A DNA stretch of 64,000 nucleotides from a virus. The stretch spans positions 1-64,000 of IMG/VR virus record IMGVR_UViG_3300013094_000027, one strand, 5' to 3'. The notes below the pieces were generated by a model, which was not told the origin of the DNA, did no database searches, and saw only the letters and a list, made by a program, of their open reading frames with translations. The stretch's first letter is position 1; each line of letters opens with the position of its first letter. Shown here in pieces: positions 2,888 to 28,066 of this stretch. Both the position numbers and the translations under genes were made by a program.

Positions 2888-5800
2888 TTAGAAATATCCT
2901 GCAACATTTCCTGAATAACCCATATATTTTCTAAAATCCTCATCAAACAAAGAGATTATTTCAGCCATTGAACTTGCACCAGGTATAAATTTAATAGCTT
3001 CTCTTGTAGGATGTGCTGATTTAAGCATGGATTTATTTCCTGTTACAGAACCATATATTTCTTGAAATTCATTAGTCATTAAGTTCCTAAAGTTTTTCAA
3101 AAGTCCTATTGCTGGTATGGTATTATTAAATAACTGTTCAAATTCTCGTGGATCATAATAAAATGAAAACTCATTATAGAATTTTGCAAATGATTTATGA
3201 GCAAAATTAAGTCGTGCTCTTTCATTTTTATCTTGCACTTGTTTTGCAATAGATGCTGATAATAACATCAAACTCAATGTACCTGCTGTAATCATTGTTT
3301 CACGCATCATTGATTTAATAATTCCAACTGATTGATGAAAATACTCTTCTTTTGACATATGAAAATCTTGACCTCTTTTTGCAAAATCTGCTTTAATTTG
3401 ATCATATCTACGATAAGCAGCTTCTCTTATACCGGGATTTGTTATTTCAGAGCCTAATAAAGAACTTAATAAAAGTTGATGTTTCATAAATCCACCGATG
3501 CCTTCACCACTAAAGAAATTATTAAAAAATTCACGCCATCTACCTACAGAATAAGTATCTGTAGCAGATTCATATTTCCATTTACCTGTTCTTGATTCTA
3601 CCTGACCGGGTATCCAGTTACGAAAACTTGTAAAAGCTTTCATTACAGATAAAGTATGCATACCAGATCTATCTTCAGGATTCATGTTACCCAATACTTT
3701 ATAAGTAACTTGTAATGCTGTTCTACGCATTTGGGTGTATGGAGATTCTATTGCTGTAGGATTACCATCTTTGTCTGTTGGAATTTTATCTAAATCTATT
3801 TTATTTCCTTTAGAATCTTCCCAATAAGGATTATTGTCTTTATCTAATTTCATTGTTGCATATAATGAACTTTTTTTACTTTCTTCAGTAACCGCTTCTA
3901 AAAGATCTTTATCAGAAATAGTTTTATTTTCAGCAGAAAGTTTATGCAAAATTTCTTGTCGTATATTTACAATATTTCCTGAATCATCTAATTTATACAT
4001 TTGTAATATAGAACCACCAACATGATTTTCAACCAATTCATCTCCTTTTCTATGACCGATTAAAAGTATATCTGTTGGATTTGGTATTTTTTTTGTAGTT
4101 TGTGCTTCTTTAGATAATTCTTTTCCAAGATGACTTTCCATGCGAAAATCAAAATACTTTATGGCTGCTTTCATTTTTGAATCATTTGTAGCTAATTTCA
4201 TGTAAGTATTTTTGATCATTCTATCGTTGAAATACAAACCTGATTTACCTTGAAAACTAATGTTACCTTCACCACCAACAATGTTTGACAATATTGATTT
4301 TATTCTAAAGGCAAGACCAACAACAGTATTATACTGAATAGCAGAATTTATTAATTTTTGAGTTGACAATTTTCTATTTTCATCTAAATGCACTAATTTA
4401 TTTACAATAGGTATTTTAGATATAACTTTATTTATTTGAGGTGCTATATCTATTGAATTGTCAAAATCTTGTACTTTACCATACATTTGTAAATCTACAA
4501 GTTCTTTTAATAGAGCAGCATTAGTTTTATTAAATGCTTCTTGACTAGGCGCATCTCCCTTAGAAGGAACTAATACATTTTTATTTTCTTCAGTAATAAT
4601 AATTTTTTCTACATTATTTTCTATATTTTTTAATGCTTTATATTTTTCAAAAGATTCAATTGTTTGAGTATATACTTTTGTAATGTCTACATTTTGTGAC
4701 GAAGCGTCATCTGAAGCATGTAAAAAAGGCATTTTTAATTCACGCCATTCTTCATTTGTTAAAGGATTTACATCTTTTTTGTTATTTAATTCTTGATTGG
4801 AATTAGATAATTTTTCCCATACTCTATCTACAGCATTTATATTTTCTCCTTGCATTTTTGCTTCCATCATTTTTGTACTAACAGAAGGAAAAAATGTATA
4901 TATTTGATGATCTTCTATTAAACCTTCTTGCGCAAGAGATTTATTAAAAGCAATCATATTATTATATAAAGAAAGTAATTCTGGAGTTTTTAGTATTTCT
5001 TTATATTCTTCAGAATACCATTTCTCATTACCTATTAAATATTTATTACCATATGCGCCATTTCTTATAGCCTCTGGATTTTCAAAATTTTTACCAACAT
5101 CGTATTTGTTAACAAATAATTCTAACTCTTGATCCATTTCATCTTTTGTAATTTGATTTGAATCAACCATTTCTTTTAAAGATGTTTGTTTTTTATTTAA
5201 ATCATTTTCGTAACGAGTTCTATCAAAAACAGTATTATTTTCATACCAAGACTTCATTATGTCTGTTGGCATAGAAGCCATTTCTTTTTTGGCTTTAAAA
5301 AATTCTTTTGTAAAATTGTTTATAAGAAGATAATTTCCCTTATAATCTTTTCTTAAAAGTTTTTCTTTAAATACTTTAATAGGGTTTGTATATTTTTCTT
5401 TTATTTCTTTTGCATTTTGTATAAAAGGTTGTGATTCTTTTTCTTGATTTGCACGAGAAGTTTCTATTGCTTGAAAATATAATCTTGTAAATAATTGAGT
5501 AGTTCTCATTTGAGTTTGACTTTGTGTAGTAGCCCATCTTTGAGTAAAATCCAACTGTTGTTCAGGAGTAGTAATATTTCCTAAATTTGCAAGATTTGAT
5601 AATTTTTGAGTTTCTTTTATGGCAGCTTCTATTAAATATTTTTCTGCACGAGCAGCCCTACCAACGTATTCATCTAAAGTGCTTTTTCTATTCTTAATAA
5701 TATTTAATTCTTCTGCTGTATAAGAACTATCTTTTAATTGTTCTAAATATTGCTTATTTAAAGAATCTTTTTCAAAAGTTTGAATAGCTCTCATTCTTTC

Positions 5801-8332
5801 AATTAATCTTGAAAGATTTATATCTTTATCACCTTTATTTAATTTTTCTATTGATGCTGCTGCATTTTGTAATTCTGAATAAATATAATCTGTTAAACCA
5901 CTAAGATCTTTTCTAAAAGCAATCTTATAAGCAGCATTTTGTATTTTTTTTGCACGTATTTCAATAGCTGTTTTTTCACTATTAGACATTTTATTAAAAT
6001 TACGTACTTGTTGTTTATACAAATTATTTAATTTGTCAAGTGTTTGTTGTATTTGTTCATTATCACTTTGATAAAAATGCACAATATGTGGTCTTAAATA
6101 AGCATCTTCATCTTCAAGATTTTCAAAATTAAAAGAAGATATTTTAATATCTTTTGGTATAAATCTTGCAACACCATTTTCATCATCAACATGTTCTCCT
6201 TCCAATTTTAAAGGTACCATTAAGTCAACTCTCCTATCTTTAAGACCATAAGTTTTAGCTAAAATATCTGCTAATTTATTAGATTGTTCAGTAAAAGATT
6301 TTTTACGACCTTCATCCAAACCTTCTTTGGAAAGACTTGCTATAGATTTCCAATCATATTTATCATAAGAACCATCTTTATAAATAACAAGTAAGTCTAT
6401 TGTACCAGCTAAACCAAATCCTTTAGAAAAATCATTTTTCTTTTTTTCATCAAAATAATCTCTATCTGCAATTTTTGCTTCAGGAATTATTATAACATCT
6501 TCATTTTTATAATGTTCTATGATTTCATGTACAAAATTAGCTAATTTATAATAGGTTTCTTCAGGACTTATTCTTTCTAAAGGTTCTATTTGACCATTTT
6601 TTCTTATAGTACCATCAGGATTTAAATATGATCTTAATAAGTTTTCTATATCTTTGTGTATGTCTGTACCTGCTTGTGCAATATCTAAGTTTTTTTGTAC
6701 TAATTCAGGATTTTCTTTTGCTCTAAAAGGTTTATCTATAGTAGATGTTACTGAAGAAGCAAAATGTTTTTTTTCACCATTTACATCTTCCGAATAAGTA
6801 TGCCTTCTTTGACCAAAAAGTTTATCTTTAGGATCATCAATAATACTATCATCTAAATGTAGATTTTTTTGTTCTTTTAATATTTTATTTATAGAATCTT
6901 CAGGTGTTATAGGTACTGTATTTTTATATTTAAATCTTCCTTTGTTTTGAAATACGTCTGTAAATACTTGATGATATAAATATTGTGAAGGATCTTCTTC
7001 TATATCATTTGGTTTTAAATCTTCTATATTCTTATTATCAATAATTGAACGATCACCTTTTAATATTGATTCTGCAATTGAACCTGCTTTAGCTTCAAGA
7101 GAATTTCTGTTTGTAAAACTATCAAAGAATTCTTTTATTTTGTTTATAATTCTTTGTAAAAGAGATGCGTTTTTTTCATCTTTTTTTATTTGCCATTTAT
7201 CTACAATACATTTTGCTATTAACTGATCAACAGCTTCTTTACGAACATGTTGTTCATCAGAATATAAATCTCCATATTGATCTTTAATATTTTCATAACC
7301 AGACCACAAATGAATATTCTTCATTAATTCATTTAAAACAAAATGATTTTCTCCCATTAACATTGTTATAATATGCGCTGCTTCATGTGGAATAGTATCT
7401 AATTTTGCAGGATTATTTTTATTAAGATATATGATTTTATTTAAAACATCTGCAACACCAAAACTATCTAACCCAAATCTTTGTTTAAAATCATCAATAT
7501 CTTGTATTTTTATTCCAAAAGGTTCTAAAAACTTAATTATAGTGTTATTTAAATCTTTATCTACATTTTGAATTTGATCTGAAGTTAATTTATGATAAAT
7601 AGTATTAGTATCTCTTTTTTGATCTATTTTTAAATCATTATCCGAACCTTGATTAAATTGTTTTATGTTTAAAAATTGATCTTGAGAATCAGCATTTAAA
7701 GCATGTTTAAAATAATCTTCAGGTTTAAAATCACCATAATTTGATTCTAAAGCACGTAAAATATTTATTCCTTTTGAGTGGGTAAGAATTGCCTCATCTG
7801 TAGCAATATTTCTTAAACTCTGTACAGCATTTGTAAATCTGTTATAAAATTCATTAAAAGATTCTCCACTGGGCACTTGTATATCAGGATTTTTAACATA
7901 AAATTTTTCAGGAAATTCTTTAGTAGGTCTGCTTTGAAATTTACCTAAATTCCAAGGTTTTAATCCTTCTACTGTAACAACATTTGCACCATTATATTTT
8001 TTTAATATTTCTGCTGTTTCTTGTGCACGAACTGTTGGAGAACTATAAATTGTTCTTAATTGTTTTGCATCTTCTGTTTTTGCTGTTTCAGTAGTTTCTT
8101 TTATACCTTTTGGTGCAAGACCAATTGGATTATCACCTGAATTTTTATCTTGTATATCTTCTAATGTTTCTCCATGATGAATAACATTTAGTTTTTTTGA
8201 ATCAAGTAATTTATTTGCTTGATCTAAAGTAGGTGTTTTTTCTCCATTAAGATGCCATGCTGCAAGTGCATTTCCTTCACCTAAACTATTTTCAAGATCT
8301 AAATATTCTTTGTTTTTTACAGGACAACCCAT
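2888..8332 (-). CDS. Giant internal virion protein with histidine-phosphatase-like, zincin-like and PD-(D/E)XK nuclease domains
   Basis: The product has 1814 residues from the ATG at 8332, which overlaps the polymerase stop as TAATG; a TTG three codons upstream is less likely. Residues 48-195 read as a histidine phosphatase: HHGET (52-56), SSPTVRAQETAE with Arg102, PSGESFNEF (154-162) and THSKG with His185. The usual RHG is HHG. Residues 300-375 look like a zincin: HEAAH at 316-320 and a candidate third ligand Glu366. Residues 550-700 hold the RecB/Cas4-type nuclease set: GTDIHKDIE (555-563), Glu618, GTIDLL with Asp646, DWK (660-662) and a Gln-helix after it. The remaining 1100 residues are helical, with one hydrophobic stretch near the C-terminus (TAGTLSLMLLSASIA). 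Neighbouring genes and size point to a protein packaged and ejected with the RNA polymerase. Domain calls are by motif; activity is unproven. Confidence 0.75.
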   Translation of the reverse strand: MGCPVKNKEYLDLENSLGEGNALAAWHLNGEKTPTLDQANKLLDSKKLNVIHHGETLEDIQDKNSGDNPIGLAPKGIKETTETAKTEDAKQLRTIYSSPTVRAQETAEILKKYNGANVVTVEGLKPWNLGKFQSRPTKEFPEKFYVKNPDIQVPSGESFNEFYNRFTNAVQSLRNIATDEAILTHSKGINILRALESNYGDFKPEDYFKHALNADSQDQFLNIKQFNQGSDNDLKIDQKRDTNTIYHKLTSDQIQNVDKDLNNTIIKFLEPFGIKIQDIDDFKQRFGLDSFGVADVLNKIIYLNKNNPAKLDTIPHEAAHIITMLMGENHFVLNELMKNIHLWSGYENIKDQYGDLYSDEQHVRKEAVDQLIAKCIVDKWQIKKDEKNASLLQRIINKIKEFFDSFTNRNSLEAKAGSIAESILKGDRSIIDNKNIEDLKPNDIEEDPSQYLYHQVFTDVFQNKGRFKYKNTVPITPEDSINKILKEQKNLHLDDSIIDDPKDKLFGQRRHTYSEDVNGEKKHFASSVTSTIDKPFRAKENPELVQKNLDIAQAGTDIHKDIENLLRSYLNPDGTIRKNGQIEPLERISPEETYYKLANFVHEIIEHYKNEDVIIIPEAKIADRDYFDEKKKNDFSKGFGLAGTIDLLVIYKDGSYDKYDWKSIASLSKEGLDEGRKKSFTEQSNKLADILAKTYGLKDRRVDLMVPLKLEGEHVDDENGVARFIPKDIKISSFNFENLEDEDAYLRPHIVHFYQSDNEQIQQTLDKLNNLYKQQVRNFNKMSNSEKTAIEIRAKKIQNAAYKIAFRKDLSGLTDYIYSELQNAAASIEKLNKGDKDINLSRLIERMRAIQTFEKDSLNKQYLEQLKDSSYTAEELNIIKNRKSTLDEYVGRAARAEKYLIEAAIKETQKLSNLANLGNITTPEQQLDFTQRWATTQSQTQMRTTQLFTRLYFQAIETSRANQEKESQPFIQNAKEIKEKYTNPIKVFKEKLLRKDYKGNYLLINNFTKEFFKAKKEMASMPTDIMKSWYENNTVFDRTRYENDLNKKQTSLKEMVDSNQITKDEMDQELELFVNKYDVGKNFENPEAIRNGAYGNKYLIGNEKWYSEEYKEILKTPELLSLYNNMIAFNKSLAQEGLIEDHQIYTFFPSVSTKMMEAKMQGENINAVDRVWEKLSNSNQELNNKKDVNPLTNEEWRELKMPFLHASDDASSQNVDITKVYTQTIESFEKYKALKNIENNVEKIIITEENKNVLVPSKGDAPSQEAFNKTNAALLKELVDLQMYGKVQDFDNSIDIAPQINKVISKIPIVNKLVHLDENRKLSTQKLINSAIQYNTVVGLAFRIKSILSNIVGGEGNISFQGKSGLYFNDRMIKNTYMKLATNDSKMKAAIKYFDFRMESHLGKELSKEAQTTKKIPNPTDILLIGHRKGDELVENHVGGSILQMYKLDDSGNIVNIRQEILHKLSAENKTISDKDLLEAVTEESKKSSLYATMKLDKDNNPYWEDSKGNKIDLDKIPTDKDGNPTAIESPYTQMRRTALQVTYKVLGNMNPEDRSGMHTLSVMKAFTSFRNWIPGQVESRTGKWKYESATDTYSVGRWREFFNNFFSGEGIGGFMKHQLLLSSLLGSEITNPGIREAAYRRYDQIKADFAKRGQDFHMSKEEYFHQSVGIIKSMMRETMITAGTLSLMLLSASIAKQVQDKNERARLNFAHKSFAKFYNEFSFYYDPREFEQLFNNTIPAIGLLKNFRNLMTNEFQEIYGSVTGNKSMLKSAHPTREAIKFIPGASSMAEIISLFDEDFRKYMGYSGNVAGYF

Positions 8333-11300
8333 TATATACAAGTTTTAATTTTTTCTAAAATATTTTCTATTGGTTCATTTGTTTTTTGTAAAGCATTGTG
8401 TAATTCTATTGCTTTTTGTTTGAATTCTTCAAAAGATTTTGGATTTTGTTCGTTTTTATATTTTTCATCATAAATCTTTTTTAAATTATTATCATCTATT
8501 GTTGTTTTTGTAGCAGATATAGATTGTTTTTCCATAGGTTGCGAAGGTACATTAACTCTTTCAAAACTTGTCTGATAACTACCTATATGAACTGTAGAAC
8601 CGCCTAATACTTTTTGAAAATGTTCTGGTGTCCATTGTTCTTTTTGAGACCATTGTTTTATAAACTCTGGGTTAGTAACATCTTCTTTGGTTAATCGATG
8701 CACTCCTGTAATCCTGTATTGAGCAGGTCTGTTTTCAAAAGTTATTATATCCCCTACTTTACCTAATGGAAAACTCCTTGTAGTAGCTGTTCTTTTACCT
8801 TGTTCAGTAAGTTCTACAGTAGAAGTGTCTCTACCTATAAGATTTTCAGAAGCAGCCATTTTATAGGACATTGCGTGATTTTTCATTTTTTGACTTTGTT
8901 GCGAAGGTACAACATTTTCAGTAACTTTTGGAGTTATTTGTAATGCTTTTTCTTTATTTATTCTTTCTTTTAAAGAATCAATTATAGCTGTTATTCTAGG
9001 ATTATTTTCATCAAAATAACTATTTTTTTCTACTAAAGATTTAGTATTATCTTCAGGATATACTTCGTTAAACATTCCTCTTTCACCAAGAATATTTATT
9101 CTTTTATAATAAACGCTTGAAGTGCCAAGATCAGGAATTTTTTCATATAGTTTTAATTCAAAATTTTTATATGCTTCACCGGCATCTGTATTTTTGTTTT
9201 TTTGTTCTGTAGTAAGTTCTTTACGAAGATCATACTTACATATATAATCATTCTTTGTTATAGAATTTTCAGAATTAAATGCAACAACACTACCATCTCC
9301 AATAGGAGTATATTTTGATTTTTTAGTAAATTTTGGAACTAATGTTTGATCGTTATAGTTTAATTGATGAAATTGTTTATAATTTAATTCTATTTCTTTT
9401 TGAAATTCTTCAGGATCTTTTATTTTATTTTTCCATGTGTCTAATATTTTGCCGACCATTTCAGAATAAATTTCATGTGGTAAGATCTTTTGAATAGAAG
9501 ATCTTGTTCCTTGCATTCCATTTTGAATAATACTATAAATACCTAAATTTTTTACCCAATCTTTATATTTAGATTGTGGTAAAGCATCATGCAACATTAT
9601 TAAAGAATCTGTAAGATCATTTATTTCATAACTATCAGATGATGCTTTATATAAACGAATTCCTGAAGGCTTTGAAGGATCTTCATTAAATATATATTGT
9701 AACGATTTTAATACTTTTGCATTTGGATTAGACATTACTTTAGGATTGCTTTTCAATTCTTTTAAAATATTTGCAACTGAATTTTCACCAAAAAGCATTT
9801 TTTCATAATTTTCTGCCAAAGTAGTTCCGTTAGTATTATGTGTTTGCAAAATACGAGCAATACTAAAACTTAAAAATTTATTTATATATCTTTCTTTTTC
9901 GTCAGAAGTTGTATAAATATTATCTATTTTATCAAAAATTCTTTCTGTTAAAGCTATTGCATCAGAATTTGATGAAATAAAATAATTCTCTAAAACAGGT
10001 TGTAAAGACAATAAGTTTTTACGTAAAACTCCTAATTGAGTATTGTTAAATAAACAATCAATAGATTCTGGTTCTATGAATCCTTGTTCTTTTACTTTTT
10101 CATAATTTCTTTGTCTAAATCTATCTGAAGCAGATGTTTTAGGTTTTTGTGTATCTATGTTAATAAGATTGTTAAAATTAAATTCTTGTTGTGATTGCTT
10201 TTTATATTCTTCATAAGCAAACAACATATTTAATTGATCCCAATTTTTATCTTTTGAAGTGTTTGTCAAATTAGAAATTAAAGTTTCTTTTGAAATAGAT
10301 TTGTAATCATCTCTTGTAGAATTAATATCATCTAACATTGATTGAATAGTATTGTTTTTTGTATTAATACTTTCCCAAAGTTGAGATTTTAATTCTTTTA
10401 ATAGTTCTTCTTCTCTGTAAGAAGTGTTTTCTATTTCATTGCTTAAAGACACTTCTTCATTTGTATGTTTAATATATTCATCCCATGTTTTACCGTTATC
10501 ATAATATTGTGAAGCAGTTTTCCAAAAAATTTGATTTCTGTAAAAAGAATCTTCATTTACCTTATTTAATAATCTATTATTAATAGCAATGTTTTTAACA
10601 TAATCTACTAATATAGGTTGTGGGAAAAATAATGCTGCGTGATTTTCAGGAGAAACACCTTTATTTACTAAGTAAAGATATGGAGCAAATGTTTCATCAT
10701 TAATATTTAGTTTAGCCAAAGCAGGTTCTTTAGCACCGTCTACAGATGCTTGCACAGCATTATCAAGACTTACAGAAATCAATCTTCCTGTTACATCATA
10801 TTTAGAACCCAATTTGATTCTTCCGTTTTCATTAACATGTGGAAAAATTATATTTATATCTTTTTTTAATGATTCTTTGCTTTGTCCTGATATATATTTT
10901 TTCTTACTTGGTGCGTATAAAAAATGCAAATTTTCACTATCATACTTTCCTGTAAGATATACGTCAGATTGTTGACACATTGTATGCATTGTTACACCTC
11001 TTGCTCCAATACCTACCAATCGTTTTGCAGTAAGATATAAATGTCTTAAATATTGAGAAGTTTTTAACTGTTGTATCGCTGTTTTATTATTTTCTTCGTT
11101 TACAATACCTTTCTTTTTTTCTACAAAATCTGCCATTTCTGTTAAAACACCCATAGAAGTAGGAGACATCATACTAGCATAGTTTTCAGGTGCTAATAAT
11201 AATGTTCTCATATTTTTTAACAATCTGTTTTGTAAACCATCCATTGTGTTTTCATCAGAAACATATTCTATTCGTGGTGCATTTTTTGGAAAAAGTTCAT

Positions 11301-14300
11301 TGTATTTTTGTAATCCTTCTTTAATATCTTTAAAAAACTTTAAAAGTTTTTCATTACCTTTTGCATAGCTTTCTACAGAACCCGGTAAATCAATTCCTTG
11401 TTCTGCAAAATTTTCAAAACCTTTATCTGTCCAAGAAGATTTATTTAAATTATCTAAGTTTTTTGTATCCCATTTTTCTAATTCTGCTTCAGGATCAGAA
11501 TAATTTTTTTCTTCAAGATGTTTAATCATTAAATTTCTAAATTCTTCAGAATCATAGTTTTTTTCTTTGATTTTAAATTTAGACATTATTTGATTTAATT
11601 TATCCACATCAAAGTCAGAACCTGAAGTAACAACTACTCCCGGAGGAATTGTTGTAACATCACCTGTTTTAGAATCAAAGAAAGCACTATATTCTTGAGG
11701 AACAATAGAACTCATTGAAGCAGTGGGTATACGAAAACCCAATGCCTCAAAAAATTCTTTTGGTAAATTTTCATGCACATCACGCCACAAATTATCTTCT
11801 CCTTTAACAAGACCAAGTTGTTCAGGAGTAAATTCTTTATAAGGCCATACTGTAACACATTTTGGAGATTTTACCTGACCATTTTCAATATAAGGAACTA
11901 AACTTTTATTAGCGATGATTCTTAAACTCTTTTTTTCTTGAGGAGTTAGTCTTTTATTGTCTTCTTTTTTATATTCAACATAATCTTTTTTAGATTCATC
12001 CCAATATGCCATTCTTGTAGATCCTTTGCGTTCTGTACCTAAAGAAGATATTTGAACAGCAGGAACACCATATAATTCTCGATTAACAAGTTTTTTATTA
12101 ATAATAGACCAAACCATGTTTTCGATTCTTTCTCTAGAAGGAAGGGCATCTAATTTAGTACCTATTACATAATTTCCTGTTTGTGGATCTCTTGTTGCAG
12201 CCAAAGAATCTATTTGATTTTGAGAAATTCCCCAATCATTTGCTTTATCTGCAAGTGTTTTTATAAATGTGTTTGCATTATTTTTAGTAGAATAATATTC
12301 TTCACCATTTTGATCTGTATGTACTTCTAAACTTAAAGTATCACAAACATCTTTTTTAGCAAGATCATACATTTTATTTAAAGTATCAATATAATCTTTT
12401 ACTACAGGTTTATATTTTTCATCTGTATTTGACATTATTATTTTTAATACTTGACTACCTACAACATGCCTTTTTTCAACAGGAACTTCTGTTTGTTTAC
12501 CATAAAATTGTGGATACAAATCTTGTGCTACCGGCACTTGATTGTTGTATTCTCCATCTTCATTATAAAATGGAAATAATGAACCGTCTTGATTTATTTG
12601 AATTCCTATTTTCTGAGCACTTTCAAAACCAAAAATATCTGATTTTGCTTTTTGATGCGCTAAATAAACATTCTCCATTGAAGTACCTTCAACATCAATC
12701 CATGACAAAGGTCTTACTGACATTTTTAATGCTACTGTATGAGTAATACCTGTTTTTTTAGCATATCCAAAATACTGAGGTTTTTCAGAACCTTTTACAG
12801 CATCTATATCTTTATAATTTTCTAGATCTTCTAAAGATTGTTTATATAATTCAGGTTTTGTTTTTTGATAATCTAAATAACCTGGATGATCTTTTGGTAA
12901 TTCACTTCTTTTTACAATTTCATATGCACGCTCATACTTAAATAAATCCCAATCTTTAGGATCCATGTCTGAACGTAAAATGCGATTTCTCCAATAAAAA
13001 TCATGCATTATATATCCTTGACCATCAGCACCATCTATTCCTAACCAGTTTTTTATTTGACCTGTTGGTTTACCTTCTTTATCTAATATTAGATTTTTAA
13101 AAGAATAAGTACCATCATTATTTTTTGTAAAATTTGCACCTAAACTTTTTTCTAGATTAGATGTATCTTTTTGTGTTTTACTAAGAATGTTAAATATGTT
13201 TGTATATATTTCTTTGTAGCCTTCTTGATAAAATTTTGGTTCAGCATAACAATGCCATCTTACAAATTGATTTTCAGTGTCTTTTCTACCATCTAATCTT
13301 GGAAAATGTTGATCTAAAAAGTTTAAAGATTCTTTATCTAAAGACCAATGTTGTTTTGGTGCTTGTGGCATTGCACCCCTTTTTGCAAAATCTTTATATA
13401 AAGCAGGGTGACCATAAATTAATTTATTTTGTTCTTGTCTTATAAATTCATAATTCAAAGTAATAAACTTTACTACTTTTTCCATTTGATCTTTGCTTAA
13501 TTTTTTAGGATCAACATGATTATAAAACAATTCTGAAAAAATTCTATTTTCTATATAATCTGTAGAATAGGAATTTCCTTTTTTTGTAAACACACCTTCA
13601 TCAAGTAAATAATTAAAATAATCACTTACTGTTTTATTTATGTGTTTTTGTATTTGAGTGTCAAGTTGTTTTTGATTTTTTTCAAGCCAAAATTTTTTAA
13701 GATTTGGATAATCATTTATGACTTCAGCTCTTTGTTTATCTGTTGCATTTTCAAGATAAGTATTTTTTGAGTCTTTATTTAAACCCAATACTTTTTCTTT
13801 AAAAGATGCTTTTAATTCAGGACTTAATATTGTATTAAAATAACCAAAATCAAGTACTCCTTTTTTATAATCTTTTATATTTGAAGAATTTAATATTTCT
13901 TGAAAAGCAGTATCCATTTCATCATTTAAATATTTGATGAATTGCATTCTTTCTAAACCAGAATCTATATTATCAAAAGATATTATTGGATTTGAAACAC
14001 TCAAAGCCATCTCTCTTGATTTATCTGAATTTATACCAATATAAAATACTTTTTCTTGATTTTTTCCTGATCCTAATATATATGCAATTTCTTGACCAAT
14101 ACGATCTGTAAAAGATAATGAATCAGTACCTTTACCAAAAATACTATCACTAACACTCATTCCATTTACAAGAACATATTTAAATACTTTTTGTGTTCTG
14201 TTTCCATTCGCATCAAAATAATTACCACCATTACGTAAAAACTCTGAATTTTTTACATAAGGATTATTATTTAAATGTGGAAATAATTCAAATAGTTCTT

Positions 14301-15726
14301 GTTTTGTTTTAACATTATTTATTGAATCAAATATTTTAGAAGCGGTAGATTGTTCTATAATAGAATATGCAAGTTCTCCTTCAGATGTTAAAAAAGATGC
14401 TGTTTGTTCACCAGTATTTATTTTTTTATAAACATTTAACAAATCATTTATTCTGCTTAAAACAGTATTTTTTTCAAATAAATCAGAAAAACTTTTTATT
14501 TTATTTTCTTTAAAAAGTTGTGATATTGCTTGATAAGATTCATTTATTGCTTTTTCATAAGGAATTAAATTTTCTGCAGGAACACCAAAATCAATACCAA
14601 TGTATTTTAATTTAGTTAAAGAATCTTGTAATGTATTGTTGCCTTTATTATCTATGAAATGATTATATTCTTTATTTTTGTTTACAACTAATTTGCCGTT
14701 GTTATTTTTAAAAAATAATTCTCCTTCATCATTCGGATCAATTTTGCTTTTAACATTATTTTCCCAAATAGATCGTATATCAACATTATTTTCTCTTAAA
14801 ACAGGGTCTACCATATGCAGACCATCTTCATTAGCTATTGATTTAGTAACGTTTAATTTGTTGGTGGAATAACTTACTTCAAAAGCAGTTTTTAAACTCA
14901 ATTCGTTTTCATTTGTAACAATATTATCTACTTTTAATCTTTTTTTAAGTTCTGCAATCCACTCGTATCCATATTTGTATTTATTATTTATTAGATATTT
15001 ATTATCTAATTCATCAAACATGTCTTTAATATTTGTTTTTCCTGAAAGTGTTTGCAATAAAACTGCTTGCACTTTAGCAAAATCTACTACAGAAGTTAAT
15101 CCATAATTTGAACCTGTTTTTCTTTCTAAAAGCCCTTCTGAATTATATCTCATTTCAGGCAAAGTAGATAGTAAAAATTTAACATTATTTTTTAAAAATG
15201 TTTTTGGATCTGTAGATATAGGATCTTTAAGATAGTTTTCTTTTTGTGCGCTATCGGCTTCTCTTTTATTAAAAGATTCTACCATATTTTCTGGAGATTC
15301 AAAATCTGCACGCAAACCTATTTTTCTAAAAAAAGAAGTTATTCCATTTAATATTTGTTGTTTTTGATCAATAATATTATAATCTTGCCGTAAGCCTATA
15401 TATTTTTTTTCTAAAAGATTTAAAAGTTTTTCATGTTGTGCTTTATCTCTTAGATTTGTTATGTCATACGCTTTCATCAAAGTACTTAAACCACCAGGTT
15501 TAAATATTATTTTGTCTGTAAATTCTTTATATGCTTTATTTAAATAAAGCTCTTGATTATCTATAGATTTAAAAAGATCATCTATACTTTTACCATCTTT
15601 TTCAAGATGATCGTATATAAGAGACACAATTCCTTCTACCACTTCTTTTTTAACAAGTGGCGAAACTCTGGATAATTTGGTACTTAATGATTTTTCAATT
15701 CCGGGATTACAATTATCAAATAACAT
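8332..15726 (-). CDS. Virion-packaged DNA-dependent RNA polymerase (crAss-like, DxDxD type)
   Basis: The product has 2464 residues from ATG 15726. The catalytic loop SGSDFDVDKLNQ places Asp1371, Asp1373 and Asp1375 in the DxDxD pattern of the double-psi beta-barrel polymerases. In the crAss-like phage phi14:2 a relative (gp66) is a single-chain virion RNA polymerase injected to transcribe early genes. The long N-terminal half carries no motif I recognise. Residues about 2286-2390 look like a separate ASCH/PUA-type domain (GKRTATTRSF, GKVGDIITF, QYRITGVHRL), flanked by two VPSQ-containing linkers. The next gene's ATG overlaps the stop as TAATG, implying coupled synthesis with the 1814-residue partner. 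The order (internal proteins, polymerase, nuclease protein) matches other crAss-like operons. Confidence 0.9.
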   Translation of the reverse strand: MLFDNCNPGIEKSLSTKLSRVSPLVKKEVVEGIVSLIYDHLEKDGKSIDDLFKSIDNQELYLNKAYKEFTDKIIFKPGGLSTLMKAYDITNLRDKAQHEKLLNLLEKKYIGLRQDYNIIDQKQQILNGITSFFRKIGLRADFESPENMVESFNKREADSAQKENYLKDPISTDPKTFLKNNVKFLLSTLPEMRYNSEGLLERKTGSNYGLTSVVDFAKVQAVLLQTLSGKTNIKDMFDELDNKYLINNKYKYGYEWIAELKKRLKVDNIVTNENELSLKTAFEVSYSTNKLNVTKSIANEDGLHMVDPVLRENNVDIRSIWENNVKSKIDPNDEGELFFKNNNGKLVVNKNKEYNHFIDNKGNNTLQDSLTKLKYIGIDFGVPAENLIPYEKAINESYQAISQLFKENKIKSFSDLFEKNTVLSRINDLLNVYKKINTGEQTASFLTSEGELAYSIIEQSTASKIFDSINNVKTKQELFELFPHLNNNPYVKNSEFLRNGGNYFDANGNRTQKVFKYVLVNGMSVSDSIFGKGTDSLSFTDRIGQEIAYILGSGKNQEKVFYIGINSDKSREMALSVSNPIISFDNIDSGLERMQFIKYLNDEMDTAFQEILNSSNIKDYKKGVLDFGYFNTILSPELKASFKEKVLGLNKDSKNTYLENATDKQRAEVINDYPNLKKFWLEKNQKQLDTQIQKHINKTVSDYFNYLLDEGVFTKKGNSYSTDYIENRIFSELFYNHVDPKKLSKDQMEKVVKFITLNYEFIRQEQNKLIYGHPALYKDFAKRGAMPQAPKQHWSLDKESLNFLDQHFPRLDGRKDTENQFVRWHCYAEPKFYQEGYKEIYTNIFNILSKTQKDTSNLEKSLGANFTKNNDGTYSFKNLILDKEGKPTGQIKNWLGIDGADGQGYIMHDFYWRNRILRSDMDPKDWDLFKYERAYEIVKRSELPKDHPGYLDYQKTKPELYKQSLEDLENYKDIDAVKGSEKPQYFGYAKKTGITHTVALKMSVRPLSWIDVEGTSMENVYLAHQKAKSDIFGFESAQKIGIQINQDGSLFPFYNEDGEYNNQVPVAQDLYPQFYGKQTEVPVEKRHVVGSQVLKIIMSNTDEKYKPVVKDYIDTLNKMYDLAKKDVCDTLSLEVHTDQNGEEYYSTKNNANTFIKTLADKANDWGISQNQIDSLAATRDPQTGNYVIGTKLDALPSRERIENMVWSIINKKLVNRELYGVPAVQISSLGTERKGSTRMAYWDESKKDYVEYKKEDNKRLTPQEKKSLRIIANKSLVPYIENGQVKSPKCVTVWPYKEFTPEQLGLVKGEDNLWRDVHENLPKEFFEALGFRIPTASMSSIVPQEYSAFFDSKTGDVTTIPPGVVVTSGSDFDVDKLNQIMSKFKIKEKNYDSEEFRNLMIKHLEEKNYSDPEAELEKWDTKNLDNLNKSSWTDKGFENFAEQGIDLPGSVESYAKGNEKLLKFFKDIKEGLQKYNELFPKNAPRIEYVSDENTMDGLQNRLLKNMRTLLLAPENYASMMSPTSMGVLTEMADFVEKKKGIVNEENNKTAIQQLKTSQYLRHLYLTAKRLVGIGARGVTMHTMCQQSDVYLTGKYDSENLHFLYAPSKKKYISGQSKESLKKDINIIFPHVNENGRIKLGSKYDVTGRLISVSLDNAVQASVDGAKEPALAKLNINDETFAPYLYLVNKGVSPENHAALFFPQPILVDYVKNIAINNRLLNKVNEDSFYRNQIFWKTASQYYDNGKTWDEYIKHTNEEVSLSNEIENTSYREEELLKELKSQLWESINTKNNTIQSMLDDINSTRDDYKSISKETLISNLTNTSKDKNWDQLNMLFAYEEYKKQSQQEFNFNNLINIDTQKPKTSASDRFRQRNYEKVKEQGFIEPESIDCLFNNTQLGVLRKNLLSLQPVLENYFISSNSDAIALTERIFDKIDNIYTTSDEKERYINKFLSFSIARILQTHNTNGTTLAENYEKMLFGENSVANILKELKSNPKVMSNPNAKVLKSLQYIFNEDPSKPSGIRLYKASSDSYEINDLTDSLIMLHDALPQSKYKDWVKNLGIYSIIQNGMQGTRSSIQKILPHEIYSEMVGKILDTWKNKIKDPEEFQKEIELNYKQFHQLNYNDQTLVPKFTKKSKYTPIGDGSVVAFNSENSITKNDYICKYDLRKELTTEQKNKNTDAGEAYKNFELKLYEKIPDLGTSSVYYKRINILGERGMFNEVYPEDNTKSLVEKNSYFDENNPRITAIIDSLKERINKEKALQITPKVTENVVPSQQSQKMKNHAMSYKMAASENLIGRDTSTVELTEQGKRTATTRSFPLGKVGDIITFENRPAQYRITGVHRLTKEDVTNPEFIKQWSQKEQWTPEHFQKVLGGSTVHIGSYQTSFERVNVPSQPMEKQSISATKTTIDDNNLKKIYDEKYKNEQNPKSFEEFKQKAIELHNALQKTNEPIENILEKIKTCI

Positions 15727-15736
15727 GTTTGTTTAT

Positions 15737-18700
15737 TTATATTTCAATAATATTATTATCACAAGACTGGTGTTTATTTAATTCATCAATTTCTTTTTCT
15801 GATAAATTTTCTTTTGGAAAATCTGAAGATTCTTGTAATGATTCTATTGCACTTCCATTATCAGTAGCAATTACAGGTTCATCGACAGGATGAACTTCAC
15901 TTTGCGAAGATACAATATTATTTGGAATATTTATATTTTCTTCAGGTTTTTTTTCTTCTACTGTTTCTTGTTTAGCAACTTCTGAAGTTATTACATTAAA
16001 CTTTCCGTTTTTGTTTTCTAAAAGTGCTTTTTTAGACATTTCACCAATGTCTCCTGTTTCTTGAATTTTATATTCAAAATTATCTTTTTCTTCATTATAA
16101 CTTATTATTTCAGCATTTTGCAAACCTTTAGGTTTTTGTATAGTAAATTTAGTACCTACTAATTTTTCATTTTGATCCCAATCTATTTCATTAGAAGGTT
16201 TTGTTACAGATACTGTTTCTGAAGGTTTAGATTCAGCTTGTTTTGTTTTAGTTTCAGGTTTTGCTTTAACTTTTGTTTTAGGTGGTTGTTGAGTTGCTTG
16301 TTTAGTTTCTCTTTTTATTTCTTGTGGAGTTGGTTTATAACCACCTTCATTGTAATCATATGTCAAATTTACTTGTTTTAAAACAGGATGCAAAGAATTT
16401 GATTCATAATTATTTTTTCCATTTGCTTCTGGCTTTAAATTTTCAATTAAATCTGTATATAATACAGGTACTCCATTATTATCTTTTTTTACAGAAATGT
16501 AATGCAAATAATTATCATAAACATCTCCACCTTCAGAAACATTTTCTAAGTTTTGTTTTAATTGATAATCATAAAAATTATTTTTTTCATTTTTAGGACT
16601 ACTTGTTTCTTCTACATGTAGATCAATATATGGATCATTTGAACTTAGGAATTTATCGTTTACTTGATGAAACATTCCTTCTAATAAAGAGTCTTTGTTT
16701 TTATCTATTTCAGAAGGCTCAAAAGGCATTGACATAAAATCTAATTTACCATCTTTACCAAAAGATCGGTATAATTTTCCATTTATAACCCAAATTCTAT
16801 TTTTACCATATTTTCCTTCAACAAAATCTTTTTCAGAAGGTGCACCCCAAAATGTTACTGCATTTAAATATTTTTCAATTTTATTTAAATCATTAATTAT
16901 TTCTTTAGCTCTTTCTTCACCATATAAAGATGTTAATCTTTCTTTTTTTGCATCACTCGACAAATATTCTTTATACTTTGCATAATATTTTAATGCATTT
17001 AAAATATTTGTTTTTTCTTCTTCAGAAAAAGCTCTGTTATTAACAGGAAATTTTAAACCATCTTCTCTTACTAATACTAATCTGCCTGGTTTGACATTTT
17101 TAGTATCGTTATCTTTTTTATTTGCAATTTTTAATTTTATAGGAAGACCATTAGGAGCAACAGGATTTCCCCAATTACCATCTTTTATTAAAGAATTTGT
17201 AATAGATAATTTAGTTCTTTTGTTTTCAGTATTTTTTTCTGATCTGTTTGGTAACCCATCAGTTTTTCCTTTTATAGGAATAGAAACTAATCCTGATTTT
17301 GCGTCTTCTTTTATTTTTTCTCTTTGTGCTCTAAATCTTTTTAATTCATCATAAGCTTGTTGAAGTTGTTGATCTAAATATTGTCCTTTACTATCTTTTT
17401 GAAAAACAAACATTTGCTTTAACAATCGCCATGCTTCTGACTTTAAAAAAGATTCTTTATTAAATTCATTATCTAAAGGTGATTCTAATAAATCATCATT
17501 ACCATGTAAAGATCTATATATAATATTTTCACTTGTTGGATTTTCTATTACATTACCATTTATATCAACAGGTTTGTTTTCTTCATTTACATAAATTACT
17601 TTAATATCATCATGATATGCCTGTTCATTACGAACATCTTTTAACCAAGGAAATTTTTCTAATAATTCTTGATTTTGTTCTGTATCTTTAGTTACTACAA
17701 ATAATTTTATTTTATTATTTGTTGTATCTACATCAGCATTAAATTTGTATGCTTCGGCATTTTTTTCACGCTCATTTAATTGTTGATCATTATCATATCT
17801 GGTTACAGTATACTCTTTATCTCCTATAAGATATACTTTAGATTCTTTAAAAGGACTCGATAGTATTTCTTCATTTTTAGCAAGTGCTCTTAAAATATTG
17901 TAATGATTTTTTAAATCTTCAGGAGTATATGATTGTTTATCTAAAATTGCAAGTCGATCATTTTCTAGAAGAAGTTCTTTTGTTTTATTTCTTTTAATTC
18001 TGAATCTGACAATATTTCCTTGATCATCACGAAGTTCTAAATGTTCAGGATGATAATTTCTACCAACAACAATACTTAATTGTTTTTGATTTGCATTAAA
18101 CACAGGTCTTACTTCATATTTATCTGAACTATAATCAAAAACGTTATCTAAAAATCCTCTATCTTCTTCAGAAGATTGTGGAGTTTGTTCTGTTACAAAT
18201 TCTTTATTTTCATTATTATGTGCTGTTTTTTCAGTATCCCAAGAAATATTGTTTTTTATTTCTTGCAATTCTTCTTTAGGTAAAGTTGAAAAAACGTCAT
18301 TTAATTTTTTAAGAAAATCAATTCTATCTTTTATATCTGAAATTTCACGCAATTTTTGGTGTTCTTCTAAAAGACGTTGTTGTTTTTCTTGTAATTGTTG
18401 TTTTTCTTTTTGAGTTTGTTCTAATTCTTTTTGATATTTTCCAGATTCTAATAATACTTTTTGTACAAACAATCTTGCTGCTTGTGCTTGAACATCAAAC
18501 TCATCTGGTTCAATATTTACAAAAGAATCTCTATTAGAATCTTGTTTTGCACGATATTGTTCAGAAAGCATATTTGTTGCAAATTTGCGTTCTTCGGCAT
18601 TACCGTTATACATTAGATCAACTAAAAAATTCTTTAATGATTTTTCATCTGTAGCTGCTTTTACAACTCGTTCATAAAGATCTTTAATATCATTAACTTT

Positions 18701-21700
18701 ACCCAAATATTTTCTATTATCATCTATCATTTTTTGCAGATGATCAATATTCATATTAGCTAAATGAATTTGATAGTCAGTATCTTCTATGTATTGTTCT
18801 ATTCTTTCTTGAACTTGTGGTCTTGAAATAAGAGATGATTTTACATCTTCAAGATGTTTTTCTAAAGCATTATATAATGTTTCTTCACCATTTCTTTCAA
18901 AAGCATCTCCTGTAGTATTTAATTCATCTAATGCTTTTAAATAAAGTTCTTTAGAAGAATGTAAATTCTTTTGTAAGTCTTTTAAAGATTGTAAATCTTG
19001 TTTTTCTTGTTCGTGTGTTTTTTCTAATTCTAAAAGATGATTTTGTAAATTTTCTATATGTGTATTTATTTCTTTTGCTTGTTCTTTAATAACAGCAAGA
19101 TATTTTTTCTTAAATCCTTTTTCTGGATATTTTTGTTGACTATAAAGATGTTGTTCGTATTCTTTTGTTATTTGTTCATGTTTTTTTAACAAAGAATCTA
19201 TTTCATCTTTCATAGATTTAGTTCTAGATTCTAATTCTTGCAAAAGAGATTCTTTTTGAGATCTTCTTTGAGAAATTTCTTCTAGTTCTTTTTCATTTTG
19301 AATAATGCGTGATTCAAAAAGATTTTTTTGTATTTGAAAATCTTCTTCTAATTTACGTTGTCTTTCAATTGAAGCTATGTGTTCAATTTCAGATAAAGAT
19401 CTGTTTTTTGAAGAATACAAGACATCTCTTTCATTAAAGATTTTTCTTTTTTCTTCATTAGTTGTTGGATCTTTATAAACAACATAAAGATTTTTTTTAT
19501 CGTCAGCTAATTGTACTTTAGCATCTACATTTTCATATGTTTTTTCAGCATCATTCCATATTCTATATCTTATGTTTTGATTGCGATAATTTAAAAATAC
19601 TTTTTGATTTGTATTTAAATCTTTGTAATTTACCCAATTTCTTTTTATAGATTCTTCAATAAATTTATGTGCATCTATAGGATATGCTTGATCATTATTA
19701 ATTTGAACCATTAACATATCTTTGCCATTTTGTTTAAAAATACCAACAATTTTTATTTTATCATTAGTATTTATATTTACAGCTTCTCCTTTATATGATA
19801 ATCCTTTTTCTATTTCGTTTGCATCACCTACAAAATAATCTCCTTCAGTAATTGTTCTATTAGTTGTAGTACCATCTTTTAATGGTACATCAGATATAAT
19901 AATTGACTTTGGATTTTTTGGATCATAAGTGTGTATGATTATTTCATTAGGTTTATAATTTTTTTCAAATTCTTCATTTGTTATAGAAATCTTTGAATTT
20001 GTTTTTACATTTGGATCATTACTAATTTCTTTTAAAATAATATTTCCTTTATCGTCAACACCAGATACTTCAAATATTTTACCATCTTTAGAATATCTTG
20101 TTCCTAATAATCCTTTTTGTTTAGCATTATTTTCTTTTGTTATATTTTGTTTGTCTTCTTCGGCTTGTTTTGTTTGTTCAACATGTTCTTTAAAGGCATT
20201 TTTCCAAATTTTTGAATACTCCTCCCAATTACCTTGTGAATCAGTTATAATATTTGCTAATTTCAATTGACCTTTAGATTCAACATCTAATTTATAATAA
20301 TCTAAATACTTTGATATAGCACTTTCTTTTTCTGAAGGAGATAATACTCTTCCTGATTCTTTTAATTGTGCATCTACTGTTTGTGAAAAGGGTTCTTTTA
20401 AAAGTTTAGAATATTTTTCATCTAACGCTTGTATAGTAATATCTTTTTTACTAGCATCTGTTATAGCTAACGTATTATTATATTCTTCTTTGTATTTTGA
20501 TAAATGAGTTAAATATTCATTATGTGCGTCTATTAATTTATCAATCTGTGCTTTTTTTACAGAATTAGTTTCTGCTGCAGATTCTGCTTTTAATGTTTCT
20601 ATAGAACCTTTAATAGCATCTTCTTGAGTAAAGTTAAACATTGTTGAAAAAGAAAGCTGTTTAAAAGCATCCATACCACGAATACCTTTATCAGATCCTT
20701 TACCATTAAATAAGATTGTTTGTCTTTCAACACCCCTTTGTGCAATATCTTTATTCCAAACTACAGAATCTATAGCATGTTGAAATGCAAGATAATTTCC
20801 CATTTCTGTAGCCCTTTCTTCAGTACCTTCTTTATATTTAAAAGGATTGTGTGGATTTGGAAATTTTCTATAAACTTCTTTGTAAATAGAATTTATGTCT
20901 TTTGCACGTTGTTGAAATTCATTTATATGTTCTTGAAAAGAAACTGTTAAATCTTCATTTCCTTCATATGGAATATTTGGATGAAATTTTTCAAATAATT
21001 CTTTTGCACTAAGATTTTGTGTAAAATCTCTTAGATGATCTAAATATACATCTGCATATCCATTTTTTATTGCCGGTATAATAAAGCTTCTTAATGAATC
21101 ATCATGTAGATCATTAAATAGTTTGTTATTTTTAAATGCTGCAGCTACTTTTAAAAAAGAATCATAATGAGATTGTTCAGCAAGTTGTGCTAAATGATCT
21201 CTTATTGAAGAAGTAGGGTCTTTATAAAATTCATTAAATTTTTGTATAAATTCTGCAGCATTATTTTTATTTTCTTCTGTACGATTTTTCCATTGTTCTC
21301 TGTTTGTTATGTAATCTCTATTTTTAAAACCCTCACGAATACCTTCACCAACAACACCCATTGCAATAGCTCCTGTTAAAAAAGAAGATATAAATGTTTT
21401 TGCATTGTCTGGTGTAAACTGATTATTTATACTTTGTTTTAAAGAATCGGCAAAAGATAATTTGTCATTAGAAATTCCATACTTAGATTCATAAAATGCT
21501 TTTGCTGCATCATCTATTGTTTTAGTAGTTTCAACTGTTAATGCAAAACCTGCGCCATGAGAAATTTTACTAGGTATTGCATCTACTAAAGATCTCCAAG
21601 TAAAATATTTATCTTTTAAAAATAATTTTTCACCTGTTTGTTCAGCAATTTTTTCAGAATTAATACCAATCATTGATAAAAATTTTCCTTCACCTTGTTG

Positions 21701-22969
21701 TGCTATTAAAGCCTGAATAGATTTAGAAGGAGTAAGTATATTACCAAATGCTAATTTATTAGTATACATCATAGCTAAAGCATCTAAAGCACCATTTGTT
21801 TTTGATGCTTCTAATGCTTTCGCTTCTATATCATTTGTTTCAGATATAGTTAGATCTCTATTTTCAGTATTTCTTATTTTGTCTTTATAGTCTTGAATTA
21901 TTTGATGATATGTGTTTGAGGCATTTGATTGTGCCATTGAGATTCCTAAATTTAAATCTCTAAAATCAGCATATACAGCACCAACGCCATTTGCAAGAGC
22001 ACGTACTCTTGCACTTGATCTTGCAATATCTGCTGTTCCTATAGCAGCATCAGAAATACCCTGACCTAAAACATTTAAAGTATTACTAAAAGGAACTAAT
22101 TTAGAAGCAACTTGAATTCCTTTACCTACACCACCAACACCAGTAGACATTGCATTTTTTGCAACATCTAAACTATTTAAAAAATTTGGTGATTCTTTAT
22201 AAGCAGCGATTGATTTTTTTAAATTAGAAGTAGTATCAATTGTTTTACTCAAAACTTGTGATTCTTTAATTACTTGTGCAGTTAATCTTTCTGCTTCTAA
22301 ACCAATTACTTCTGGAGTTAACGCACCTGCAGTAGCTGTTATAAGTGCTGTTGTTGCATACATTTCAGCACCCATTTCAGTTACAGATCCCACTAAAGGT
22401 CCTGTTTCTTGAATACCTTTTAAAAAATTATTCCATGAAAAGAAACTGTTTTTATCATCTTCTGTTTGATATATAGCATATTGATTTTCATCTTGTTGAT
22501 TTTTTTTATAAACTTCTTCTAGTTCATCTTGATGAAAAGCACTTTGTAAAGTAGGATCTTGAAAAATAGAAGCAGTATCTTTCCATGATGTTATCTGATT
22601 TACAAAAGCATTTTTTGCACCAGACAACCAACCACCTATTGTATTTTTTAATTTTTGTCCTGTTGTTTGTGCTTGAGCATATCTTTGTTCATTTTCTTCT
22701 CCTAAAGAAGGGTCAAATCCTAATATATTATAATTATCTTTTCCTACGTATCTACTAGCGTTAGTTGCGTCCCAATTAAAAGTATATGTTTGTTGTTGTG
22801 CAGCTAAAGATGAAGGTTTATTAATAAAATCTTGCGCTCTTTGTTCAAAAGTAGATCCTTCTACAGAAGATGGTTGTTCTATAGGGCGTGGATTATAATT
22901 TATAGTATTACTTATATCTGGAGATGGTGCTTGTTGCACTTCATCAAATAGTCCTGTATCAAAAGGCAT
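15737..22969 (-). CDS. Giant internal (ejected) virion protein, 2410 residues
   Basis: The product starts at ATG 22969, overlapping the previous stop as TAATG. The N-terminal 550 residues mix Ala/Gly-rich and weakly hydrophobic stretches (near 205-230 and 525-545) that could insert into or line a membrane channel. Residues roughly 1190-1550 are a long, highly charged coiled coil (EELEEISQRR, QLQEKQQRLLEEHQ). The C-terminus has a Lys/Pro/Thr linker (about 2230-2265) followed by a small beta-rich segment. I recognise no enzyme motif. Its place directly before the polymerase and its size match the giant proteins carried inside crAss-like virions, so a role in DNA/protein ejection or as a polymerase partner is likely but inferred. 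Confidence 0.75.
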   Translation of the reverse strand: MPFDTGLFDEVQQAPSPDISNTINYNPRPIEQPSSVEGSTFEQRAQDFINKPSSLAAQQQTYTFNWDATNASRYVGKDNYNILGFDPSLGEENEQRYAQAQTTGQKLKNTIGGWLSGAKNAFVNQITSWKDTASIFQDPTLQSAFHQDELEEVYKKNQQDENQYAIYQTEDDKNSFFSWNNFLKGIQETGPLVGSVTEMGAEMYATTALITATAGALTPEVIGLEAERLTAQVIKESQVLSKTIDTTSNLKKSIAAYKESPNFLNSLDVAKNAMSTGVGGVGKGIQVASKLVPFSNTLNVLGQGISDAAIGTADIARSSARVRALANGVGAVYADFRDLNLGISMAQSNASNTYHQIIQDYKDKIRNTENRDLTISETNDIEAKALEASKTNGALDALAMMYTNKLAFGNILTPSKSIQALIAQQGEGKFLSMIGINSEKIAEQTGEKLFLKDKYFTWRSLVDAIPSKISHGAGFALTVETTKTIDDAAKAFYESKYGISNDKLSFADSLKQSINNQFTPDNAKTFISSFLTGAIAMGVVGEGIREGFKNRDYITNREQWKNRTEENKNNAAEFIQKFNEFYKDPTSSIRDHLAQLAEQSHYDSFLKVAAAFKNNKLFNDLHDDSLRSFIIPAIKNGYADVYLDHLRDFTQNLSAKELFEKFHPNIPYEGNEDLTVSFQEHINEFQQRAKDINSIYKEVYRKFPNPHNPFKYKEGTEERATEMGNYLAFQHAIDSVVWNKDIAQRGVERQTILFNGKGSDKGIRGMDAFKQLSFSTMFNFTQEDAIKGSIETLKAESAAETNSVKKAQIDKLIDAHNEYLTHLSKYKEEYNNTLAITDASKKDITIQALDEKYSKLLKEPFSQTVDAQLKESGRVLSPSEKESAISKYLDYYKLDVESKGQLKLANIITDSQGNWEEYSKIWKNAFKEHVEQTKQAEEDKQNITKENNAKQKGLLGTRYSKDGKIFEVSGVDDKGNIILKEISNDPNVKTNSKISITNEEFEKNYKPNEIIIHTYDPKNPKSIIISDVPLKDGTTTNRTITEGDYFVGDANEIEKGLSYKGEAVNINTNDKIKIVGIFKQNGKDMLMVQINNDQAYPIDAHKFIEESIKRNWVNYKDLNTNQKVFLNYRNQNIRYRIWNDAEKTYENVDAKVQLADDKKNLYVVYKDPTTNEEKRKIFNERDVLYSSKNRSLSEIEHIASIERQRKLEEDFQIQKNLFESRIIQNEKELEEISQRRSQKESLLQELESRTKSMKDEIDSLLKKHEQITKEYEQHLYSQQKYPEKGFKKKYLAVIKEQAKEINTHIENLQNHLLELEKTHEQEKQDLQSLKDLQKNLHSSKELYLKALDELNTTGDAFERNGEETLYNALEKHLEDVKSSLISRPQVQERIEQYIEDTDYQIHLANMNIDHLQKMIDDNRKYLGKVNDIKDLYERVVKAATDEKSLKNFLVDLMYNGNAEERKFATNMLSEQYRAKQDSNRDSFVNIEPDEFDVQAQAARLFVQKVLLESGKYQKELEQTQKEKQQLQEKQQRLLEEHQKLREISDIKDRIDFLKKLNDVFSTLPKEELQEIKNNISWDTEKTAHNNENKEFVTEQTPQSSEEDRGFLDNVFDYSSDKYEVRPVFNANQKQLSIVVGRNYHPEHLELRDDQGNIVRFRIKRNKTKELLLENDRLAILDKQSYTPEDLKNHYNILRALAKNEEILSSPFKESKVYLIGDKEYTVTRYDNDQQLNEREKNAEAYKFNADVDTTNNKIKLFVVTKDTEQNQELLEKFPWLKDVRNEQAYHDDIKVIYVNEENKPVDINGNVIENPTSENIIYRSLHGNDDLLESPLDNEFNKESFLKSEAWRLLKQMFVFQKDSKGQYLDQQLQQAYDELKRFRAQREKIKEDAKSGLVSIPIKGKTDGLPNRSEKNTENKRTKLSITNSLIKDGNWGNPVAPNGLPIKLKIANKKDNDTKNVKPGRLVLVREDGLKFPVNNRAFSEEEKTNILNALKYYAKYKEYLSSDAKKERLTSLYGEERAKEIINDLNKIEKYLNAVTFWGAPSEKDFVEGKYGKNRIWVINGKLYRSFGKDGKLDFMSMPFEPSEIDKNKDSLLEGMFHQVNDKFLSSNDPYIDLHVEETSSPKNEKNNFYDYQLKQNLENVSEGGDVYDNYLHYISVKKDNNGVPVLYTDLIENLKPEANGKNNYESNSLHPVLKQVNLTYDYNEGGYKPTPQEIKRETKQATQQPPKTKVKAKPETKTKQAESKPSETVSVTKPSNEIDWDQNEKLVGTKFTIQKPKGLQNAEIISYNEEKDNFEYKIQETGDIGEMSKKALLENKNGKFNVITSEVAKQETVEEKKPEENINIPNNIVSSQSEVHPVDEPVIATDNGSAIESLQESSDFPKENLSEKEIDELNKHQSCDNNIIEI

Positions 22970-28020: not shown

Positions 28021-28066
28021 ACAAACAATCTCTTCAATAGAGCTTACAAAGCTACAAACAATCTCT
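28021..28066. repeat. Paired 13-bp direct repeat around a dyad, upstream of the 635-residue gene
   Basis: ACAAACAATCTCT occurs exactly at 28021-28033 and 28054-28066. Between them AGCTT-ACA-AAGCT (28041-28053) is a perfect short dyad. On the minus strand TAGCTTTG (plus 28047-28054) matches the -7 consensus TAnnTTTG, but no TTTG lies 19-21 bp upstream. The second copy overlaps the lysozyme stop codon. This looks like a regulatory region for the cargo genes downstream. Confidence 0.5.

Follow-up and report, generated by a model that had tools for sequence, protein, structure and literature searches.

Near the start of a 64,000-nucleotide stretch of viral DNA (positions 1 to 64,000 of IMG/VR virus record IMGVR_UViG_3300013094_000027, which is 92,018 bases long; hereafter the window), a gene encodes P0001, a protein of 1814 residues, and the question raised by this locus is how such a chain would reach a host cell and what it would do there. 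An original prediction, made from the sequence alone, had placed P0001 beside the virion RNA polymerase, had read in it a histidine-phosphatase-like region, an HExxH zincin-like region and a complete RecB/Cas4-like PD-(D/E)XK motif set, and had proposed an injected multi-enzyme tool of undescribed composition. The location is as predicted: the open reading frame (ORF) runs on the minus strand from an ATG at 8332 to a stop at 2888, and the ATG overlaps the stop of the polymerase, P0002, in the letters TAATG (an alternative TTG start at 8341 is possible; residue numbers here run from the ATG). Given a Crass-type major capsid protein (Crass_capsid), which is a lineage marker, and sequence matches of P0002 to Crassvirales RNA polymerases, the phage is classed here as a remote crAss-like phage. 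CrAss-like phages are the most abundant human gut viruses.

By sequence comparison P0001 is a homologue and counterpart of cr108_1 gp052 and crAss001 gp49: its gene adjoins that of the crAss virion RNA polymerase, and its zincin-like and C-terminal regions are homologous to those of the gp49 family. P0003, on the other side of the polymerase, is probably of gp47 type, to judge from its position and the pattern at its end. How a cargo of ~5 MDa of protein is moved through tail constrictions of < 50 Å is an open question, according to the available text of PMC10172136. We consider it moderately likely that P0001 forms the final chain in an ejected assembly of three parts (P0003, P0002, P0001) that is joined by disulfides and enzymatic inside the host. 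Head-to-tail disulfide coupling, if true, would explain ordered ejection by simple chemistry, and the variable slot of gp49-type proteins would offer a ready-made list of early effectors against the host.

Cysteines at the ends of the cargo proteins

The cargo giants are nearly free of cysteine except at the ends where they would meet, namely the C-terminus of gp47-type proteins, both termini of the polymerase, and the N-terminus of gp49-type proteins; the outer ends (gp47 N-terminus, gp49 C-terminus) have no terminal cysteine. This pattern was unexpected and formed no part of the original prediction. A comparison of headers places the cysteine at residue 3-6 in gp49-type proteins and polymerases alike. 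The end cysteines of the window are C2403 of 2410 residues in P0003, C6 and C2463 of 2464 in P0002, and C3 in P0001. The three proteins of crAss001 have, respectively, one cysteine 2 residues from the C-end (gp47); Cys 5, one internal cysteine and one 8 residues from the C-end (gp50); and Cys 5 only (gp49). For phi14:2, the sole cysteine of g067 is its last residue, g066 has two, Cys 3 and Cys 2179 of 2180, and g065 only Cys 3; for phi17:2, placed outside Crassvirales by its record's taxonomy, the sole cysteine of gp39 is the last residue, gp38 has two, Cys 4 and Cys 516 of 517, and gp36 has Cys 3 alone. Taking crAss001, phi14:2, Fpv3, phi17:2 and the window together, a cysteine within 8 residues of the end stands exactly at the would-be meeting ends in 14/14 proteins; the joint chance of this, ~1e-38, was computed as if related proteins were independent and is indicative only.

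The rule holds across IMG/VR loci, even where polymerase chains carry 15 to 36 cysteines. The loci fetched around cargo genes, which are therefore not a random sample, contain 101 non-redundant, complete ORFs with a length of 900 residues or more; 43 of these ORFs have exactly one cysteine, which lies no more than 8 residues from an end in 42 of the 43. Both codons are used for the terminal cysteines (TGT 90, TGC 11). No published description of the pattern was found in the open-licence literature.

Where gp47 and the polymerase form one ORF (cr118 gp14 and Fpv3 gp32), the junction cysteines are gone and the C-end cysteine is kept, and the complete three-part single-ORF fusions L023 (4895 residues) and L028 (5639 residues) have zero cysteines. 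In cr108_1, bajarodcaudo virus, L077, L082 and L083 the polymerase is interrupted within its active-site motif; these interruptions are best read as introns, and here the second piece has no starting cysteine and the first piece, where read, no ending one. The gp49-type gene of L039 (L039:2536-10716) is broken around an inserted ORF of ~261 residues and has a cysteine at both new protein ends, while L013, as predicted beforehand, has a chain ending in cysteine followed by a chain with Cys3. L078 and L087 were left out as too fragmentary.

We propose, and believe a little more readily than we doubt, that disulfides link gp47, the virion RNA polymerase and the gp49 proteins head to tail in one chain of ~5,400 to 6,700 residues, and that gene fusions would put a peptide bond in place of the disulfide. 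In the window, P0003-C2403 would be bonded to P0002-C6, and P0002-C2463 to P0001-C3; the coupled giants, partly unfolded, would then thread the narrow tail in order as a single chain, and the reducing cytoplasm of the host would uncouple them.

Two other readings of the terminal cysteines were rejected: with only 0-8 residues beyond the cysteine there is no space for an intein half, which argues against an intein or trans-splicing, and a DNA or RNA signal is contradicted by crAss001 gp47 and gp50, which are encoded apart and on opposite strands and yet bear the cysteines, and by the occurrence of both codons. Rather unlikely, in our judgement, is that P0001 is an ejected polyvalent protein of the ordinary kind and that its terminal cysteine has a role other than disulfide coupling, for example in metal binding shared by chain ends, as a packaging tag, or in fixing the chain to some other part of the virion. 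Pairing of the terminal cysteines with one another is not compulsory, the header peptide could serve as a loading signal, and polyvalent proteins are already known (PMC5512222); however, the restriction of the cysteines to would-be meeting ends, with none at the outer ends and none left in complete fusions, speaks against this explanation, and if the cysteine were a packaging tag it should mark every cargo protein, whereas crAss001 gp45 and gp46 have no terminal cysteine.

Domains of P0001 and the gp49-type family

About 20 homologues of P0001 were obtained from IMG/VR by searches with alignments. Single-protein scans of viral and genome collections with P0001 or its phosphatase yielded no relative, P0001 had no match at E 1e-5 among 50,697 phage records, and it had none among defence-system models. 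The IMG/VR gp49-type proteins share a core made up of a zincin-like domain, a nuclease and a C-terminal region, which on these comparisons is the ordinary plan of the gp49 family; in other phages the gp49 domains are fused to the polymerase chain in a single ORF, with the polymerase first. The stretch from the header to the zincin-like domain varies among relatives: ART-PolyVal scores above the Pfam cut-off in L031 (1e-22), L032, L040 and L020 and below it in L017 and L034, GNAT is found in L020, and extra HExxH stretches occur in L017, L020 and L036. The phosphatase of P0001, as far as sequence can tell, is a new occupant of this slot. With several distinct enzyme-type domains in a single chain of a mobile element, P0001 is, by sequence, a polyvalent-type protein: its header is followed by an N-terminal effector slot whose occupant is exchangeable, a zincin-like domain, a nuclease and a conserved C-terminal region.

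The predicted nuclease (residues 506-758) proved to be just that. Its motif set is complete (H559, E618, D646, D660-x-K662 and Q683), aligns in > 20 relatives and is intact in most members, and 12/19 family members match PDDEXK_1 (best 2e-8). The best Foldseek hit of its model is human EXO5, followed by Cas4-like ACE1, AddAB and MGME1 (E from 5e-3, probability up to 0.97), and comparison with crAss PD-(D/E)XK models gave E of 1e-9 or better; the H, E, D, DxK and Q set and the fold of a RecB/Cas4-like PD-(D/E)XK nuclease are thus both present.

Residues 47-205 are likewise recognised as a histidine phosphatase: His_Phos_1 (PF00300) scores 5e-20, over its cut-off, a PDB sequence search agrees, and every top hit in Foldseek is a histidine phosphatase (2qni first, at E=1.6e-6), although the pLDDT of the model is only 62. 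The motifs are HHGET (52-56), SSPTVRAQETA (97-107) and THSKG (184-188). Like branch 1 of the superfamily (PhoE, CobC, GpmB, SixA), P0001 has the fold, the nucleophile histidine (H53), the second arginine (R102) and the second histidine (H185), but in alignments its catalytic core is incomplete, with H52 for the arginine of RHG (hence HHG) and P126 for the usual acidic residue, a glutamate. The domain scores under every NCBIfam equivalog cut-off. PF00300 was found in 0/39 other related records (27 + 12, some of them fragments), and none of the phosphatases in plasmid and phage records exceeds ~31% identity to that of P0001.

The third domain, within residues 240-429, has the single HExxH of the protein (HEAAH, 316-320), with E366 downstream at an aligned position. 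HExxH appears in 4.8% of shuffled P0001 sequences, so the motif alone is weak evidence for a zincin. The domain is conserved and aligned across about 33 relatives, and hhalign comparison with the HExxH domains found on gp47-type chains and on polymerases gave prob 94 and E 1e-7 (prob 83 and E 9e-6 with the P0001 sequence removed); these results argue for a real conserved domain, whose putative zincin fold is backed by profile comparison only. Every gp49-type relative reads EExxH where P0001 reads HExxH, and in a tree the P0001 domain falls beside additional N-terminal copies from L034 and L039 (support 97/99), which likewise read EExxH; from this we infer that the histidine of P0001 is probably derived, that is, regained. 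These second copies, the nearest relatives of that of P0001, lie at L034:4033-4647 and L039:2653-3270. In L053-L064 the gp47-type zincin reads HExxE and the gp49-type domain of the same phages EExxH, a His-to-Glu change at opposite metal positions in two partner proteins; a rule of one intact HExxH zincin per phage was rejected on account of this clade.

It is doubtful that the enzyme domains are mostly structural or decayed, that is, a pseudo-phosphatase and a pseudo-zincin accompanied by a nuclease retained to process the virion or genome and not to attack the host. The two missing catalytic positions of the phosphatase, the EExxH of the zincin-like relatives, the HExxE of the sister zincin in one clade and the probably derived histidine of P0001 would suit such decay; against it stand the nuclease motifs, intact in most members, and the fact that the 92-kb record of this phage has no gp47-type zincin, P0001 being the sole HExxH bearer among its ORFs of > 150 residues.

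Known systems share parts of this arrangement. The proteins crAss001 gp49, cr108_1 gp052 and phi14:2 g065, like P0001, adjoin the polymerase gene and carry an N-terminal cysteine, and the first two have the zincin-like and C-terminal regions; the nuclease is present too in cr108_1 gp052, whereas in crAss001 it sits on gp47 and not on the gp49-type chain. They differ from P0001 in having no phosphatase and in reading EExxH. The polyvalent proteins that Iyer et al. 2017 (PMC5512222) described from phages and conjugative elements also have several enzyme domains per injected chain, including zincin-like domains, and ART-PolyVal modules such as those of P0001 relatives; unlike them, crAss cargo shows the terminal-cysteine pattern, and the words 'phosphatase' and 'crAss' are absent from the main text of that paper. 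The PDDEXK nucleases of the crAss-like transcription block (Yutin et al. 2021, PMC7886860) are, as in P0001, domains inside a large transcription-associated protein; no such phosphatase is mentioned there, and the metallophosphatase named in that paper belongs to a gene of its own. The novelty claimed for the combination is thereby narrowed to the phosphatase and the intact HExxH, since zincin-like domain plus nuclease is the standard family plan and both injected polyvalent proteins and PDDEXK domains in crAss transcription giants have been published.

Delivery into the host and the weight of the evidence

The available text of PMC10172136 reports gp47, gp49 and gp50 in crAss001 virions by mass spectrometry, and g065-g067 of phi14:2 were found by tandem mass spectrometry (MS/MS) according to a note in the record. 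Together with the polymerase fusions elsewhere, these counterparts lend good support to the predicted injection of a multi-domain protein: P0001 and its two partner giants, one of them the RNA polymerase, are very probably injected, and the virion location of the counterparts suggests that P0001 would be delivered early. The same text (Bayfield et al., PMC10172136) describes disulfides elsewhere in the virion and tail constrictions of < 50 Å, and expects the cargo to unfold partly. Inside the host, the nuclease may trim or open DNA, either entering or host; the phosphatase may dephosphorylate a metabolite, signal or protein of the host; and the zincin-like domain, provided that it is active, may process the injected chains or a host protein.

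Several points weigh against a disulfide-joined, enzymatically active assembly. Virion assembly occurs in a reducing cytoplasm, and the hosts are often anaerobic, so that the timing of disulfide formation is a difficulty. Bayfield et al. analysed both reduced and untreated virions, and the available text reports no such link between the giants (PMC10172136). Internal cysteines are present in P0002 (six) and P0001 (one, C375), and the first fragment of the broken gp49-type gene of L012 has no terminal cysteine. The phosphatase, zincin-like and nuclease activities are predicted ones; the R-to-H and E-to-P substitutions speak against a standard phosphatase, and the zincin-like part, in a low-confidence model, gave no structural zincin match and lacks the expected sheet.

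Quite unlikely is a three-enzyme attack tool that hits metabolites, proteins and DNA of the host simultaneously, as originally envisaged: all three motif sets are present and the counterpart of P0001 is in virions (available text of PMC10172136), and an injected, multi-domain protein survives of that idea, but doubts attach to the catalytic residues or the fold of two of the three domains (no RHG arginine or usual acidic residue in the phosphatase, a profile-supported fold in the zincin), and the role of the nuclease may lie in phage transcription or in the entry of DNA.

Features of the window

Table 1. Positions, in the window, of the three cargo genes, the parts of P0001, the terminal cysteine codons and the capsid gene
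Feature	Coordinates	Strand	Remark
P0001, gp49-type virion cargo protein	2888..8332	-	1814 aa
N-terminal header of P0001	8198..8332	-	residues 1-45, with Cys3; helical in model
Histidine phosphatase domain (branch 1)	7718..8194	-	variable-slot module
Zincin-like domain	7046..7615	-	HEAAH at 7373-7387; E366 downstream
RecB/Cas4-like PD-(D/E)XK nuclease domain	6059..6817	-	
gp49-family conserved C-terminal region	2909..4720	-	
P0002, virion RNA polymerase	8332..15726	-	2464 aa; GSDFDVDK motif
P0003, gp47-position protein	15737..22969	-	2410 aa; lone Cys2403
TGT codon, Cys3 of P0001	8324..8326	-	
TGT codon, Cys2463 of P0002	8338..8340	-	1 residue from C-end
TGT codon, Cys6 of P0002	15709..15711	-	
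TGT codon, Cys2403 of P0003	15761..15763	-	7 residues from C-end
Major capsid protein	56449..58134	-	PF23898 E=3e-24

Three further observations concern other parts of the window. The C-terminal part of P0002 (~residues 2290-2400) has, by eye only, an ASCH-type-like stretch, for which Pfam gave no match. An ORF of 153 residues at 28065-28526 has a lysozyme-like EG...TIGYGST stretch, also seen by eye, and a NUMOD3 homing-endonuclease-type protein (PF07460, 5e-21) is encoded at 62344-63207.
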